Made by a program: the position numbers and the translations under genes | Shown here: positions 7,348-13,359 of the stretch, one piece after another | Layout: the number at the start of each line of letters is the position of its first letter | How positions within the stretch are numbered: the stretch's first letter is position 1 | Notes under the pieces: model-generated | What the model was told of the DNA's origin: nothing | What the model saw: only the letters and a program-made list of their open reading frames with translations | Databases searched by the model: none | Source of the DNA: Salinicola avicenniae | GTDB lineage: Bacteria > Pseudomonadota > Gammaproteobacteria > Pseudomonadales > Halomonadaceae | Direction: 5' to 3' | DNA: 64,000 nucleotides | NCBI RefSeq assembly: GCF_023736115.1 | Contig: NZ_JAKQZC010000003.1 | Span: 248,001 to 312,000 of the forward strand

Positions 7348-8658
7348 TTGGACTCGCGTTTTCCCTTCGTCGACTGGTTCCGCAATTCGTCGCCTTATAT
7401 CAATGCCCACCGCGGCAAGACCTTCGTCATTCTGGTCGAAGGCGAGGCGATGGCATCCTCACGCTGGGATCAACTGCTGCAGGATCTGGCATTGCTGCAC
7501 ACGCTCGGCGTGCGCGTGGTGCTGGTCTACGGCATCCGGCCGCAGGTTAGCGCGGCGCTGGAAGACGCCGGGGTGACGCCGCATCGCGTCGAGGGGCGCT
7601 GGGTCGCCGACCGCCAGGTAATGGATCAGGTCGAGCGCATCGCCGCACGCCACCGCCTCGACCTGGAAGCCCAGCTATCGCTTGGCCTGCCCAATACGCC
7701 GTTGCATGGCGTCGAGCTCACGGCCGTTTCCGGCAATCTGGTAACGGCCAAGCCACTCGGCGTGCGCGAAGGGGTGGACTTCGATCACAGCGGCGAGGTG
7801 CGTCGGGTTCGCAGCCAGGCGATCGAAAGCTTGCTCGCCGACGGCAATCTGGTGATTCTGCCCCCGCTCGGTTACTCGCGGACCGGCGAAGTCTTCGACC
7901 TGGATGCCTCCGAGATCGCCCAGCACGTGGCGGTCTCGCTCAAGGCGGACAAGCTGATACTGCTCGGAGAGTCCGCCGGACTGCATGACGACACCGGCCA
8001 GCTGCAGCGTCAGTTGACGCCGGCAGAAGCGGATGCCCTGCGTCAGCAGGCGGCACCGGGCAGCGAGCTTTCCCGCCATCTGGGCGCTGCCTGCGAGGCC
8101 GCCCGCCATGGTGTCGGGCGCACGCACCTGCTCTCCTGGCGCGACCACGATGCGCTGCTCGGCGAGCTCTTCACCCGCGACGGCGTGGGTACCATGATTA
8201 CCCAGAATCGCTACGAGCAGCTGCGCCAGGCGGTGCTCGACGATGTCGGCGGGCTGCTGGCGCTACTCAAGCCGCTCGAGTCCAGCGGCATGCTGGTGGC
8301 GCGTACCCGCGAGCGTCTCGAGCACGAGGTTGACGACTACGTGGTGATCGACCGCGACGGCATGGCGATCGGCTGTGCCGCGCTGCATCCTTACCCGGCG
8401 GCGGGCATGGGCGAGCTGGCCTGTCTCGCCGTGCATGCCGACTACCGCCGGGGGGCGCGGGGCGAAACCCTGCTCGCCGAGATCGAGCGTCGTGCCCGTC
8501 GACGTGGCCTGACGCAGCTGTTTGCGCTGACGACCCACACCACCCATTGGTTCTTCGAGCGCGGCTTCGAGCTTGCCTCGCCGGAGGCCCTGCCGCCCCT
8601 CAAGCGCGAAGCCTATAATCAGGCGCGTCGTTCCAAGGTGTTGCTGAAGTCGCTATAA
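7348..8658 (+). CDS. argA: amino-acid N-acetyltransferase (N-acetylglutamate synthase)
   Basis: A 436-residue enzyme of the classical gammaproteobacterial ArgA type (E. coli 443). It transfers acetyl from acetyl-CoA to glutamate, the first step of arginine synthesis, and is normally inhibited by arginine. Residues about 25-280 form the amino-acid-kinase fold that binds arginine in this family; about 290-436 form the GNAT domain, with the CoA-binding segment around ACLAVHADYRRGARG. The start is a TTG with GGAG about 9 bases upstream, and the first residues (MDSRFPFVDWFRNSSPYIN) match the family start. A TATAGT -10-like element lies about 45 bp upstream. No ARG box was recognised. Confidence 0.94.
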   Translation: MDSRFPFVDWFRNSSPYINAHRGKTFVILVEGEAMASSRWDQLLQDLALLHTLGVRVVLVYGIRPQVSAALEDAGVTPHRVEGRWVADRQVMDQVERIAARHRLDLEAQLSLGLPNTPLHGVELTAVSGNLVTAKPLGVREGVDFDHSGEVRRVRSQAIESLLADGNLVILPPLGYSRTGEVFDLDASEIAQHVAVSLKADKLILLGESAGLHDDTGQLQRQLTPAEADALRQQAAPGSELSRHLGAACEAARHGVGRTHLLSWRDHDALLGELFTRDGVGTMITQNRYEQLRQAVLDDVGGLLALLKPLESSGMLVARTRERLEHEVDDYVVIDRDGMAIGCAALHPYPAAGMGELACLAVHADYRRGARGETLLAEIERRARRRGLTQLFALTTHTTHWFFERGFELASPEALPPLKREAYNQARRSKVLLKSL

Positions 8659-8691
8659 CGCGACACCCGTAACCCGCCTTTTCGTCAAGAT

Positions 8692-8711
8692 GCGTCTCTT
8701 TTTTGAGACGC
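8692..8711. other. perfect hairpin just after argA
   Basis: GCGTCTC-TTTTTT-GAGACGC, a 7-bp perfect stem with an all-T loop, starts 33 bp after the argA stop. It lacks a downstream T-run, so it is not a standard terminator, but it may stabilise the transcript 3' end. Confidence 0.35.
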
Positions 8712-8747
8712 CATAGGTAGCTGATAAATAAAGACTTTATGGTTTTT

Positions 8748-8785
8748 GGCCAAAAAGCGTCGTCTTTCGGCGACGTTTTTTGGCC
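8748..8785. terminator. strong bidirectional intrinsic terminator after argA
   Basis: The left arm GGCCAAAAAGCGTCG pairs with CGACG followed by six T and GGCC, a 15-bp stem with one G-U pair and a TCTTTCGG loop. The A-tract and T-tract within the stem are typical of bidirectional terminators. It closes argA and isolates the sigma-54 promoter 100 bp downstream. Confidence 0.8.
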
Positions 8786-8865
8786 GTTTTTCCCGCCTAT
8801 GACCCCCTCTACGCCTTTTGGCGAATTCCGTGCCATGCTGGTGATTATTAAAACTTTGTTTTCAA

Positions 8866-8882
8866 AGGTTTTTTAAAAACCT
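8866..8882. promoter_or_regulatory. AT-rich palindrome abutting the sigma-54 promoter
   Basis: AGGTTTTT-T-AAAAACCT has perfect 8-bp arms and overlaps the first bases of the -24 element. It may aid DNA bending or melting. No protein is assigned. Confidence 0.4.
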
Positions 8883-8897
8883 GGCACGCTCTTGGCA
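8881..8897 (+). promoter_or_regulatory. sigma-54 (RpoN) promoter, -24/-12
   Basis: The sequence CTGGCACGCTCTTGGCA matches the sigma-54 consensus. The invariant GG (8883-8884) and GC (8895-8896) are exactly 10 bases apart, and the -24 block TGGCACG is perfect. Transcription should begin about 12 bases past the GC, near 8908-8910. The next protein genes are glrK-qseG-glrR, and GlrR is a sigma-54 activator. I could not find the enterobacterial GlrR box TGTC-N10-GACA upstream. Confidence 0.85.
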
Positions 8898-9055
8898 GTA
8901 GTATTTATCGAGAGCGACGGGAGACGGTCCTCGGATCGGTTCTCGGCGGATCTCGTGAAAGCCTCGACAACCCTGTGCAGGATTTCATGAGATTCGCGAG
9001 CGTCCGCTCCACGCGATGTGTGACTTAGGTTGCGATGAGACGGGTGCGGCCCATC

Positions 9056-9103
9056 GGGCAAGGAGATGCACCATTAGGGCAAGGATGCCCCGGGCAAGGA
9101 TGC
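9056..9103 (+). repeat. three GGGCAAGG(GA)ATGC repeats inside the candidate RNA
   Basis: Copies lie at 9056-9069 (with a 2-base GA insertion), 9077-9088 and 9092-9103. Each exposes AAGGA, similar to the GGA motif bound by CsrA/RsmA in CsrB-type RNAs. Around ten GGA triplets occur between 8909 and 9372. Confidence 0.6.
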
Positions 9104-9344
9104 CTTTCCCCTCCTGAGAGGGGACCCATTGCGGCAGGCCGCCGATATTGGCGCAATAGCGCTAACGTCGGCGACCCGCCCAGAGACGAAGCGGCGGTTC
9201 GCCGTCACGGAGATCGACTGCCCCTGAATGGCATAGGTCGCGCCTCCGGCTTCGTGGGCCTTCGGGCCCTGGGAACGGTCTCGAATAGCTGATTCAGGCA
9301 GTTTTTCAAGGTCGTTTCCGACCCTTCAGTTCCCTGCGTACCTT

Positions 9345-9372
9345 GGGCCGGCTCTGCCGGCCCTCTTTTTTT
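9345..9372 (+). terminator. intrinsic terminator of the candidate RNA
   Basis: GGGCCGGC-TCT-GCCGGCCC is a perfect 8-bp GC stem with a 3-base loop, followed directly by TCTTTTTTT. It ends the sigma-54-driven transcript 236 bp before glrK, so the RNA is a separate unit rather than a plain leader. Confidence 0.9.
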
Positions 9373-9576
9373 GCGCCATGTTTTTGTGACTTCTCGTTGC
9401 CGACGAATCGATCGTAACGAGGCTTCCGGCGCCGAAAGCCCAGCAGGGGTCGTTGGGGCTCGATTGACGCCGAACCGCCATCGCCCCGGGGGCGATCAGC
9501 GCAACCGGGAACGGCGACTCGAACACGGGCCGACAATCGGCCGCGCCACAGGCTGTCAGCGTGCCGCCTGGGTGTT

Positions 9577-9607: not shown

Positions 9608-11251
9608 ATGACATCAATGGGCCTCCTGCACAGAGCCACCTCTATGACCACCGAGCTTTCCCGCCGCTGGCGTCCCCGCTCGCTGCTGCAACTGGTATTG
9701 CTGGCGTTCGTCGTCGTCATGTTGCCGATCGCCGTGCTGATGTTCCAGGCCGGACAGGCGCTGTCCGAGCTGTCGACGCTGGCCGACCAGAGCGCCCGCC
9801 ATGCGGTCGAGCAGACACGTCGCGCGCGCATGCTGAGCTCGCTGGCGCTGCAGATGGAGCGCAGCGCGCGGCAGTACGCGGTGATCGAAGAAGAGGGGCT
9901 GCGCGAAATCTACAACGAGAAGGCGCGTCAGTTCGGCGAGCTGCTCCAGGAGCATGAACCGCTGATGCGCGACGACCCCGATTTTCGCTCGCTGGCGTCA
10001 CGCTTCCAGCAGCTGCGCGAGCTGCCGCGTATCCCCGGCGAGACGCTGCAGCCGGCCGATGAAGCAGGCGCCGAGCGCGCGGCCGAGGCACCGCCAGTGC
10101 CGGATCTGTCGCTGCTGCCCCCGCAGGAGAGCATGAGCGACTTTCTGGCGCGTTTCTCCGGCTTCGCCAGCGAGTCCGATGCCGTCCGCAACGCGACCAA
10201 CGCGTTGATCGACAGCCGTATCGCCGATATCCGCGAGCGCGCCGATGCGGTGCGCGCTCGGCTGTGGATGCAGACCGCCGCGCTGGTCTCCGCCAGTCTC
10301 ATGCTGATGCTCTTCTTCACCTGGCTGATCACGCGGCCGATTCGTCAGCTCGAACGGCGGATCTTCGGCCTCGGCAGCGGCGAGCGCAGCGACACCGAGC
10401 AGCGTATCCAGGGGCCGGCGGAACTGGTGCAGCTAGGCGATCGTCTGAGCTGGCTCTCCGGGCGGCTCAACGAACTCGAGGCGCAGAAGCAGCAGTTCCT
10501 GCGCCATATGTCGCACGAACTGAAGACACCGCTGGCGAGCATTCGCGAAGGTACGGCGCTGCTCTCCGACGGCGTGGCCGGCGATCTCGAGCCGCGTCAG
10601 CACGAGATCGTCACCCTGATCGACGAGAACGGTCAGGAGCTGCAGACGCTGATCGAGCAACTGCTGGATTACAATCTGCTGCAGAACAGCCGGCGCATGA
10701 AGGTGAGCCGCTTCGATGTCGCCACGGTGATTCAAGAAGTGCTCGCCAAGCATCGCCTGGCGCTCGACAACAAGGGCATGCAGGTGATCAGTCCGCATCA
10801 TCCGCTGGAGTGGCAGGCCGACCGGGAGCGTACCGCGCGCATTCTCGACAACCTGATCTCCAACGCGATCGCTTACGGCGAGGATGGTGGCAATCTGACG
10901 ATCCGCCTCGCCAGCCAGCGCGACTGGCTGGCGGTCGAGGTCGCCAACAGTGGCGAACCGATCGCCAAGGCGGATCGCGAGCACCTGTTCGAGGCGTTCT
11001 ATCAGGGCAGCGCACGGCGCAAGGGGCCGCTCAAGGGCTCCGGCATCGGCCTGTCGGTCGCCGCCGACTGCGCGCGCCTGCAGGCGGGCCAACTGGCACT
11101 GGTCGACGACGCCGAGCTGCCGGTCTGCTTCCGCCTGACGTTGCCCTGGGCCGAGCGCCCCGAGCGCCCGGGCCACGCGATACCGCACGATAACGATGCC
11201 GTACCGGAAGACAGGGTCACGGCCACCGACGCAAGGAACGATACATGGTAA
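9608..11251 (+). CDS. glrK: GlrK/QseE-type membrane sensor histidine kinase
   Basis: A 547-residue inner-membrane kinase that should phosphorylate GlrR. A first membrane segment lies near residues 28-50 and a periplasmic sensor of about 170 residues follows, with a Pro/Glu-rich insertion. A second membrane segment, a HAMP linker, the dimerisation domain with phospho-acceptor His303 in MSHELKTPL, and a C-terminal ATPase domain (N box DNLISNAIAYG, G box GSGIGLSVA) complete it. Membrane-proximal residues (RSLLQLVLLAF) resemble enterobacterial GlrK. ATGs at 9608, 9617 and 9644 are in frame; 9608 has a weak GGAA site, while 9644 gives a start closer to E. coli. The 3' end overlaps qseG by 7 bp, so the three genes are probably an operon. 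The signal is unknown. Confidence 0.9.
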   Translation: MTSMGLLHRATSMTTELSRRWRPRSLLQLVLLAFVVVMLPIAVLMFQAGQALSELSTLADQSARHAVEQTRRARMLSSLALQMERSARQYAVIEEEGLREIYNEKARQFGELLQEHEPLMRDDPDFRSLASRFQQLRELPRIPGETLQPADEAGAERAAEAPPVPDLSLLPPQESMSDFLARFSGFASESDAVRNATNALIDSRIADIRERADAVRARLWMQTAALVSASLMLMLFFTWLITRPIRQLERRIFGLGSGERSDTEQRIQGPAELVQLGDRLSWLSGRLNELEAQKQQFLRHMSHELKTPLASIREGTALLSDGVAGDLEPRQHEIVTLIDENGQELQTLIEQLLDYNLLQNSRRMKVSRFDVATVIQEVLAKHRLALDNKGMQVISPHHPLEWQADRERTARILDNLISNAIAYGEDGGNLTIRLASQRDWLAVEVANSGEPIAKADREHLFEAFYQGSARRKGPLKGSGIGLSVAADCARLQAGQLALVDDAELPVCFRLTLPWAERPERPGHAIPHDNDAVPEDRVTATDARNDTW

Positions 11252-11793
11252 ATCCGATCAAGGGGGCGTTATGGCTCTCTGCCGCGCTGACGCTGGCAGG
11301 TTGCCAGTCGCTGGCCGGTTCGCCTTCGGCGCCTCATGGCTGCGGCGATATCCCGTCGTTTGCCGACAATGTCTGCCTGCTCGACTCCTGGGTCGCCTTT
11401 GGCCTGGAAGCGCAGCGCGGCGACGACGCCTGGCGTCGCGACACCCTGGCCGAGGCGAGTGGCCCGCGGCCGTCGCAGAAGGCGGCGCGCGCCGTGGTGC
11501 TCTCCTGGGATGGCCCGAGCGAGTGGCGCCAGGCCTCCGATCTCTACAAGGCGACGCTCTCCAGTGCGCCGCCCCGTCTGCAGCCGCTGCTGCAGCAGTG
11601 GCTCAACGACCTGGAGGAGCGCCGTCAGCTCCACGCCCAGCAGGACGCGGGTGCACGCCGACAAGGAGGAAGTCGCGATGAAACGCAGGCACTGAAACGC
11701 GAGAACGAGGCGTTGAAACAGCAGCTCGAGGAGATGTCGAACAAGCTCGACGCGCTGACCGACATCGAACGAACCATCAACTCACGTGACTGA
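11245..11793 (+). CDS. qseG: QseG/YfhG-like outer-membrane lipoprotein
   Basis: A 182-residue protein with an N-terminal signal peptide and lipobox LTLAGC (acylated Cys about residue 20). It is followed by a helical domain and a C-terminal coiled coil (about 140-175, ENEALKQQLEEMSNKL). QseG, the lipoprotein coded between glrK and glrR in enterobacteria, interacts with the kinase and stimulates it. Position between the two genes and size support the assignment; sequence similarity is modest. It overlaps glrK by 7 bp, which suggests translational coupling, and is followed after 135 bp by glrR. Confidence 0.82.
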   Translation: MVNPIKGALWLSAALTLAGCQSLAGSPSAPHGCGDIPSFADNVCLLDSWVAFGLEAQRGDDAWRRDTLAEASGPRPSQKAARAVVLSWDGPSEWRQASDLYKATLSSAPPRLQPLLQQWLNDLEERRQLHAQQDAGARRQGGSRDETQALKRENEALKQQLEEMSNKLDALTDIERTINSRD

Positions 11794-11928
11794 GCCATCC
11801 CGTGATGCCGGGTCGTTTGGCCCGCATCGCCCGCTTGCCACCGCCGCCGCGACGATGCCTTGTCGCGCCGCCGGTGACAGCTCCCGACGACGGATGTCGG
11901 GGCGACGATGGCAGGAGGTGTCCATTCC

Positions 11929-13359
<1,431 letters not shown>

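Follow-up and report, generated by a model that had tools for sequence, protein, structure and literature searches.

A predicted sigma-54-type regulatory RNA with conserved CsrA-type sites and a putative flhD-pairing seed upstream of glrK-qseG-glrR in Salinicola avicenniae and its relatives

The window analysed here, a 64,000-nucleotide stretch of the Salinicola avicenniae genome (G000), carries in this order argA (7348-8658), a predicted RNA gene, glrK, qseG and glrR. The features of the locus, read along the forward strand, are the following.

8649..8664, +: GTC-N10-GAC palindrome, putative GlrR/QseF-like UAS 1, overlapping the 3' end of argA
8694..8709, +: GTC-N10-GAC palindrome, putative UAS 2, from a pattern scan
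8759..8774, +: GTC-N10-GAC palindrome, putative UAS 3, part of the stem of a hairpin resembling a terminator (8747-8786)
8882..8897, +: -24/-12 (sigma-54) promoter TGGCACGCTCTTGGCA, GG-N10-GC, with a predicted start at about 8908 and a conserved position
8908..9371, +: predicted structured regulatory RNA of about 464 nt, from promoter, folding, covariation and conservation
9000..9041, +: near-invariant stem-loop, from alignments
9000..9105, +: core matched by the covariance model R1 (119 bits; the genome itself is among the building sequences)
9060..9064, +: ANGGA site 1, unpaired inside the covarying stem GGGTGC...GCACC; ANGGA in 75 of 75 named sequences
9077..9090, +: hairpin with ANGGA site 2 (GGGC AAGGAT GCCC); ANGGA in 74 of 75
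9093..9104, +: hairpin with ANGGA site 3 (GGC AAGGAT GCC); ANGGA in 75 of 75
9324..9344, +: 3' seed CTTCAGTTCCCTGCGTACCTT, with 12 bp of complementarity (9330-9341) to the flhD Shine-Dalgarno region in the same genome
9345..9372, +: intrinsic terminator GGGCCGGC-TCT-GCCGGCCC followed by a T run, from a terminator scan
9608..11251, +: sensor kinase gene glrK (qseE), preceded by its own conserved -10-like element
11229..11239, +: candidate second pairing site ACGCAAGGAAC ahead of the qseG start, with one C.A mismatch to the seed
11245..11793, +: qseG, lipoprotein, from profile matches
11908..13359, +: glrR (qseF), sigma-54 activator, from profile matches

The initial annotation had placed an RNA gene upstream of glrK-qseG-glrR, and the operon is a true one: GlrR scores 802.5 bits against an NCBIfam equivalog cut-off of 763, GlrK is a HisKA-HATPase sensor by profile matches, and QseG reaches 41 bits with the NCBIfam QseG model, below its cut-off of 234, and exceeds the cut-off of the Pfam YfhG lipoprotein family. 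The start of glrK is the ATG at 9608, conserved across an alignment of 30 intergenic sequences, and with this start the proposed distance of 236 bp between the end of the terminator and glrK holds. Elsewhere we found glrK frames broken by TGA codons, three of them in G013:C1:2521828-2522859 and one in G019:C18:165609-166592.

TGGCACGCTCTTGGCA departs from the -24/-12 consensus by one mismatch, which no other site of the 64-kb window does. By count alone such a promoter is not significant in 64 kb (four sites with up to two mismatches, against a mean of 11 in shuffles), so the case for it rests on its conservation. The pattern TGGCA[CT]-N7-GC is present in all 30 argA-glrK loci, which were drawn from BLAST matches, and the promoter pattern recurs in 79 of 80 named glrK loci, the 80th (L143) lying on a contig that begins only 425 bases before glrK; shuffles of those stretches contain it in 83 of 4000 cases. 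The named set comprises Salinicola, Chromohalobacter, Halomonas, Litchfieldella, Billgrantia, Modicisalibacter, Cobetia, Kushneria, Larsenimonas and others. The near-perfect promoter described beforehand is therefore real, its position being kept in both sets.

The three GTC-N10-GAC palindromes of the window (8649, 8694, 8759) fall within 126 bp. In the 79 named relatives this motif averages 1.34 copies per locus over the 300 bp preceding the promoter, while the 13 other spacings tried there give 0.01-0.15 per locus, which puts N10 about ninefold or more above each of them; 65 of the 79 loci hold at least one. Over the whole window the motif is not enriched (28 against 25.1 in shuffles). In E. 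coli, QseF has three sites of the TGTN12ACA consensus at glmY, together with IHF (PMC6075780). At the level of sequence, then, a -24/-12 element stands next to putative enhancer sites of its cognate activator, and control of the RNA by GlrR is a well-supported prediction. The hairpin at 8747-8786, a very strong terminator-like structure after argA, holds one of the GlrR-like palindromes, so the same DNA may serve both for termination and for binding of the activator.

The RNA itself shows the marks of a structured transcript. Its 463 bases fold with z = -5.2 relative to shuffles. The covariation check proposed for the region upstream of glrK gave, with RNAalifold on 30 sequences, 69 pairs; for 35 of these, one or more sequences carry a double change. 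In 73 distinct rows, whose alignment was fitted to the model, standard pairs make up 97.6% of pair cells against 94.0% in shuffles, and pairs with double changes number 11 against 4.2 in shuffles and 2-6 when the alignment is slid. The RNA alignment (A1) leaves out L002 and the second promoter matches of L024 and L028. A small-protein gene was considered and rejected: the 85-aa frame at 9035-9292 has no Pfam match, and the 30 RNAs share no conserved reading frame, their longest start-to-stop frames varying from 31 to 117 aa at differing places. The claim of about 460 bases with no convincing gene is thereby borne out, as is that of a perfect intrinsic terminator, and the concern that a protein frame rather than RNA structure might be conserved is met by covariation and no conserved frame. 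We therefore regard 8908-9371 as a predicted structured non-coding RNA gene. Rfam covariance models, also proposed as a check, gave no family at gathering score over the RNA. A weak likeness to suhB/mmgR at 9304-9378 (E 0.029, 23.1 bits against a gathering score of 41) is treated as convergence of a pyrimidine seed adjoining a terminator. The stem-loop at 9000-9041, with a GUGUGACUUAGG loop and a GUUGCGAUGAGAC arm, may serve as a second site of pairing.

A BLAST search with 8860-9372 found matches in 31 of 58 genomes, the own one included. In each of the 30 argA-glrK loci the promoter element is followed by an RNA of 350-559 nt with the same 3' sequence and terminator, and promoter plus 3' end lie upstream of glrK in 79 of the 80 named relatives, L143 again starting too near glrK. 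For wider searches we used R1, a covariance model of the RNA core with 104 positions built from 26 sequences (alignment A2, which leaves out the near-duplicates L005, L010 and L015 and the divergent L031). R1 matches 75 of the 80 named loci, those of Halomonas elongata and a Chromohalobacter type strain among them, and 144 of 250 genomes of the family. Of 390 genomes drawn from the order it matches 10, each of them a member of the same family. A GlrK-like protein (E up to 1e-30) is encoded by 35 of the 37 family genomes in the 58-genome set, being absent from G020 and G026; R1 matches 29 of these 35 and neither of the two genomes lacking GlrK. Among the six GlrK genomes with no R1 match, G023 and G031 still have promoter and seed before glrK, and in G019, G032, G033 and G034 the seed was not seen. 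G041, from another family, has glrK and no R1 match. Upstream of its glrK lies a sigma-54-like element, TGGCACAAGCTCTGCA (L197:1308-1323), followed, as read by eye, not by the RNA described here but by the frame of a small secreted EF-hand-like protein and a terminator, and this locus has no Rfam match. The slot beside GlrR may hold different outputs in different lineages.

Three ANGGA sites follow one another at 9060-9104, two of them in AAGGA hairpin loops. Across the 75 named sequences the A and the GGA are near-invariant and the N is free (at site 1: A 41, T 23, C 7, G 4), and 79 RNAs contain 4.2 ANGGA each against 1.9 in shuffles. The three-hairpin stretch alone folds no better than shuffles (z -0.9). 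CsrA-titrating RNAs are described as carrying short hairpins that expose unpaired ANGGA (PMC7366521), and several short hairpins exposing ANGGA are what we find here; the genome has one csrA match. This CsrA signature points to CsrA binding at the three sites. The Csr/Rsm families of Rfam do not match the RNA even at E up to 10. With 46 of 118 candidates scored in the own genome, RF00166 gave 0 matches there; among the best candidates scored elsewhere, sub-threshold matches appear in G020, G030, G034 and G036, and the one match above threshold is in G056, from another family. Sub-threshold RsmZ matches mark L040 and L041 (G030, G036) and L039 (G020). L040 and L041 are GGA-rich, with terminator-like hairpins at their ends and no Rfam match at gathering score. 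These loci are perhaps the canonical Rsm RNAs of the family, and canonical Rsm-like RNAs probably exist in some relatives. For Halomonas anticariensis, a 2020 review gives the antagonising RNA of CsrA as unknown (PMC7366521). CsrB has 22 GGA motifs and McaS 4 (PMC10729762); since three ANGGA sites are few for a sponge, CsrA might instead control the RNA.

At the other end of the transcript, the 3' stretch AGUUCCCUGCGUA is identical in 30 of 30 aligned RNAs, including 13 contiguous seed bases. The flhD site of the own genome lies at C7:243180, where the 12 bp GUACGCAGGGAA lie 7 nt before the ATG. The exact complement of an 11-mer of the seed occurs at 36 places in 18 Salinicola genomes: 18 are the RNA itself, 2 are further seed copies (G000, G016), 10 are flhD leaders and 6 are single places elsewhere. 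Each of the ten directly precedes the start codon of a gene whose product Pfam identifies as FlhD. A reversed-pattern control gave 23 places in the same 18 genomes. In G016 the flhD pairing is kept as a shifted 11-base run, and in G011 through G-U wobble.

Beyond Salinicola, 120 of 123 FlhD-bearing genomes were taken (G091, G109, G144 and extra copies were left out), and after G161, G149, G146 and G033 were dropped for having no recognisable N-terminus, 116 leaders remained; G147 has seven FlhD matches in one genome, some of them partial. Counting as RNA-positive the family genomes with an R1 match and as negative all others, runs of at least 9 bases to the flhD leader occur in 50 of 81 positive and 0 of 35 negative genomes, and runs of at least 7 in 74 of 81 and 7 of 35. 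The seven negative genomes with such runs all belong to genus g15. Promoter and seed stand at glrK in G031 of that genus (L031, a divergent copy), and L175 and L177, two named loci from Kushneria, have them as well, so these seven may be positives that R1 failed to detect. No run of at least 7 was found in the flhD leaders of genus g10 (0 of 21) or of g16 and g18 (0 of 3), which have no R1 match. Seven of the 81 positive leaders have runs below 7, G011 and G024 pairing fully once G-U is allowed; in G023 and G029 the flhD match is absent although the seed is present.

How much of this complementarity is expected by chance can be judged from null leaders, whose ORF starts were set mechanically. 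The longest run is 8 in 141 leaders of the window and 6 in a set of 40 with ATG and a Shine-Dalgarno-like core; a wider set has runs of at least 9 in 13 of 456 leaders, and among the five of these thirteen matches that were listed, three are the antisense of the RNA itself and two are qseG leaders. Duplex energy alone barely separates flhD from null leaders (-24.2 against -23.7 for the best of the 141). The flhD pairing overlaps the Shine-Dalgarno sequence and clumps by genus. In single-sequence folds of every fourth of the 79 RNAs (n=20), the seed is modestly more open than the rest (0.44 against 0.34). A conserved seed with a conserved complement at the flhD start site is what a seed-pairing sRNA would present, and from this complementarity we infer that the seed would block flhD translation; the terminator with its long U tail is compatible with an Hfq-type sRNA, whose pairing Hfq might help.

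Two other genes were considered as targets. Among the leaders scanned, that of qseG stood out: of 80 loci (the window and 79 named ones), 28 have ACGCARGGAAC upstream of the qseG start and 58 have GCARGGA or better, with neither in 22; 81 leaders had been taken and L155 left out for lack of a stop codon. None of the five glrK-bearing genomes with no R1 match or visible seed has the site (G019, G032, G033, G034, G041). The site overlaps the Shine-Dalgarno sequence and the last glrK codons, and in 55 null leaders (mechanical ORF starts, lipoprotein-like and antisense leaders removed) GC precedes A[AG]GGA in 16 and ACGC does so in 3, so qseG as a second seed target is only suggestive. The activity of E. 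coli QseE requires QseG (PMC6075780), so repression of qseG would be negative feedback; this is the weakest part of our explanation. As for glmS, its 20 leaders in 18 Salinicola genomes give runs of only 4-7 with the seed, and it was rejected as a seed target. Two full-length glmS genes are present in G000 (C3:217994, C4:60339), and two each also in G011 and G017.

The RNA also has relatives away from glrK. A second R1 match lies elsewhere in six genomes of g19 (G035, G074, G096, G122, G128, G133), and short versions of about 160-210 nt bring together the same seed-terminator, a sigma-54-like promoter and hairpins with GGA (identified partly by eye). These short paralogs are located as follows.

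G024, L028:2108-2318: tandem
G030, L075: before a GGDEF gene
G035, L074: short paralog
G074, L078: short paralog

Because promoter, GGA hairpins and seed recur jointly in the short paralogs, their distribution argues that the three act together. At L075 (G030:C1:1441000-1445000) two seed-terminators flank the GGDEF gene (Pfam PF00990): the gene is preceded by the short sigma-54-like RNA, and the terminator that follows it contains a variant of the seed.

The initial annotation had read the RNA as a counterpart of GlmY. What stands of this is a sigma-54-type RNA in the GlmY position with GlrR-like sites; the glmS function does not stand, given the short runs to the glmS leaders. Like glmY of Enterobacteriaceae, which lies upstream of qseE-qseG-qseF, the gene has the same address, the same two-component system, a sigma-54 promoter and three QseF-type palindromes. 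It differs in its length of about 464 nt (more than twice GlmY, as had been stated), in its CsrA-type sites and flhD seed, in showing no visible glmS link, and in having, as was also foreseen, no GlmY match in sequence: the GlmY/GlmZ covariance models do not match even at E up to 10, and homology with them is rejected. McaS of E. coli is the nearest in its parts. It activates flhD, and we know of no GlrR control of McaS. With it our RNA shares CsrA-type GGA sites and base pairing to flhD mRNA (PMC10729762); McaS is not at glrK; the RNA described here has no Rfam match and, unlike McaS, is predicted to repress flhD, through Shine-Dalgarno pairing. CsrB/CsrC and RsmX/Y/Z/W/V likewise have hairpins exposing ANGGA, but they are under GacA control, while here the control region is of sigma-54/GlrR type by sequence, only three sites are conserved, there is an extra antisense seed and no Rfam match is found. 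The Qrr RNAs of Vibrio are also a sigma-54-driven family with a shared seed and paralogs, and differ in regulator, seed and targets. The parts are of known kinds, and the RNA family and its wiring appear new; we found no description of this RNA in the titles and abstract openings listed from the open-licence literature on Halomonas/Chromohalobacter sRNAs, GlrR/GlmY/sigma 54, McaS and CsrA. A 2026 review of environmental sRNAs names Halomonas (PMC13414033).

We consider it rather likely that the locus encodes a trans-acting RNA, driven by GlrR and sigma-54, which titrates CsrA, represses flhD and thus gives the GlmY position an output like that of McaS. GlrR activated by GlrK/QseG (GlrR-P) would bind the upstream palindromes and drive RNA polymerase-sigma54 from 8882-8897, and the transcript would end at 9345-9372. 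The three closely spaced ANGGA sites would bind CsrA and lower its free level, and the 3' seed adjoining the terminator would pair with the flhD Shine-Dalgarno region, blocking translation of the flagellar master regulator; the same seed may hold back qseG, a brake on the RNA's own activator. CsrA stabilises flhD mRNA in E. coli (PMC10729762, citing others), and in Pseudoalteromonas the stepwise deletion of Csr RNAs raises motility (PMC11882849), so both arms point to reduced motility under active GlrR. The QseEF-GlmY pathway of Proteus also reaches flhDC, yet there it promotes swarming (PMC8745638), and the sign of the flhDC effect may therefore differ between lineages.

The same RNA and flhD pairing would also fit a scheme in which CsrA is not titrated but opens, closes or stabilises the RNA, as reported for McaS-csgD. 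We hold this to be rather unlikely. In its favour, only three ANGGA sites are conserved, the seed lies about 230 nt from them so that a structural switch is possible, and CsrA enhances McaS-csgD repression via a GGA site of McaS (PMC10729762). The short paralogs speak against it, with AAGGA-type hairpins in varied surroundings (by eye) that fit binding for its own sake. Conversely, the RNA could be a pure CsrA sponge of the Rsm/Csr class, the seed being terminator context and the flhD match a consequence of a shared strong Shine-Dalgarno sequence. The ANGGA conservation (75, 74 and 75 of 75) would suit this, and part of the match is cheap, as GC stands before A[AG]GGA in 16 of 55 null leaders; yet 13 contiguous seed bases identical in 30 of 30 RNAs, flhD pairing of up to 12 bp and the lack of runs of at least 7 where R1 finds no RNA (g10, 0 of 21; g16 and g18, 0 of 3) make it quite improbable.

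It is very unlikely that the RNA is a RapZ decoy controlling glmS whose sequence has diverged beyond recognition. Address, two-component system, sigma-54 promoter and three GlrR-like sites are as at E. coli glmY (PMC6075780), but no GlmY/GlmZ match appears even at E up to 10, the seed gives runs of just 4-7 with 20 glmS leaders, and CsrA and flhD explain the conserved elements instead. The least probable reading, for which we see hardly any chance, denies a trans-acting RNA and makes the region a small-protein gene, or else a leader of glrK that stays untranslated or acts as a read-through device. In its favour, the region lies directly upstream of glrK on the same strand, glmY is co-transcribed with qseEGF in P. 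mirabilis (PMC8745638), and G041, from another family, has at about this place a sigma-54-like promoter and an EF-hand-like small frame (by eye); a perfect terminator and a conserved separate promoter-like element stand before glrK, however, no reading frame is conserved, and promoter, hairpins and seed are retained in additional copies distant from glrK.

We would propose, tentatively, that the locus has swapped its output RNA, a RapZ decoy in enterobacteria and in these halophiles a new sigma-54 dual RNA family with short paralogs, combining CsrA decoy, flhD antisense and qseG feedback. A conserved envelope-stress two-component system would then keep its habit of a neighbouring sigma-54 RNA and exchange RNA and targets, and envelope sensing would be linked directly to flagella in bacteria used in biotechnology. 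The RNA is also a candidate CsrA input that does not look GacA-driven, in a family for which the CsrA-antagonising RNA is listed as unknown (PMC7366521). The predicted flhD pairing is exact enough for testing by compensatory changes.

Copies of the seed outside the RNA deserve mention. Exact 18-mers of it occur in 13 IMG/VR contigs, and a phage-borne origin was rejected: in 0 of 13 contexts does a terminator stem follow, and the contexts look by eye like coding sequence, several of them repetitive, and are taken as unrelated. The second exact seed copies with terminator lie at L002:1505-1547 (G000:C4:444131) and L250 (G016:C7:226474), neither of which matches the sigma-54 pattern. Downstream of the copy in L002 we found an RdgC-like gene (Pfam PF04381), which suggests that this copy lies in a mobile or prophage region.
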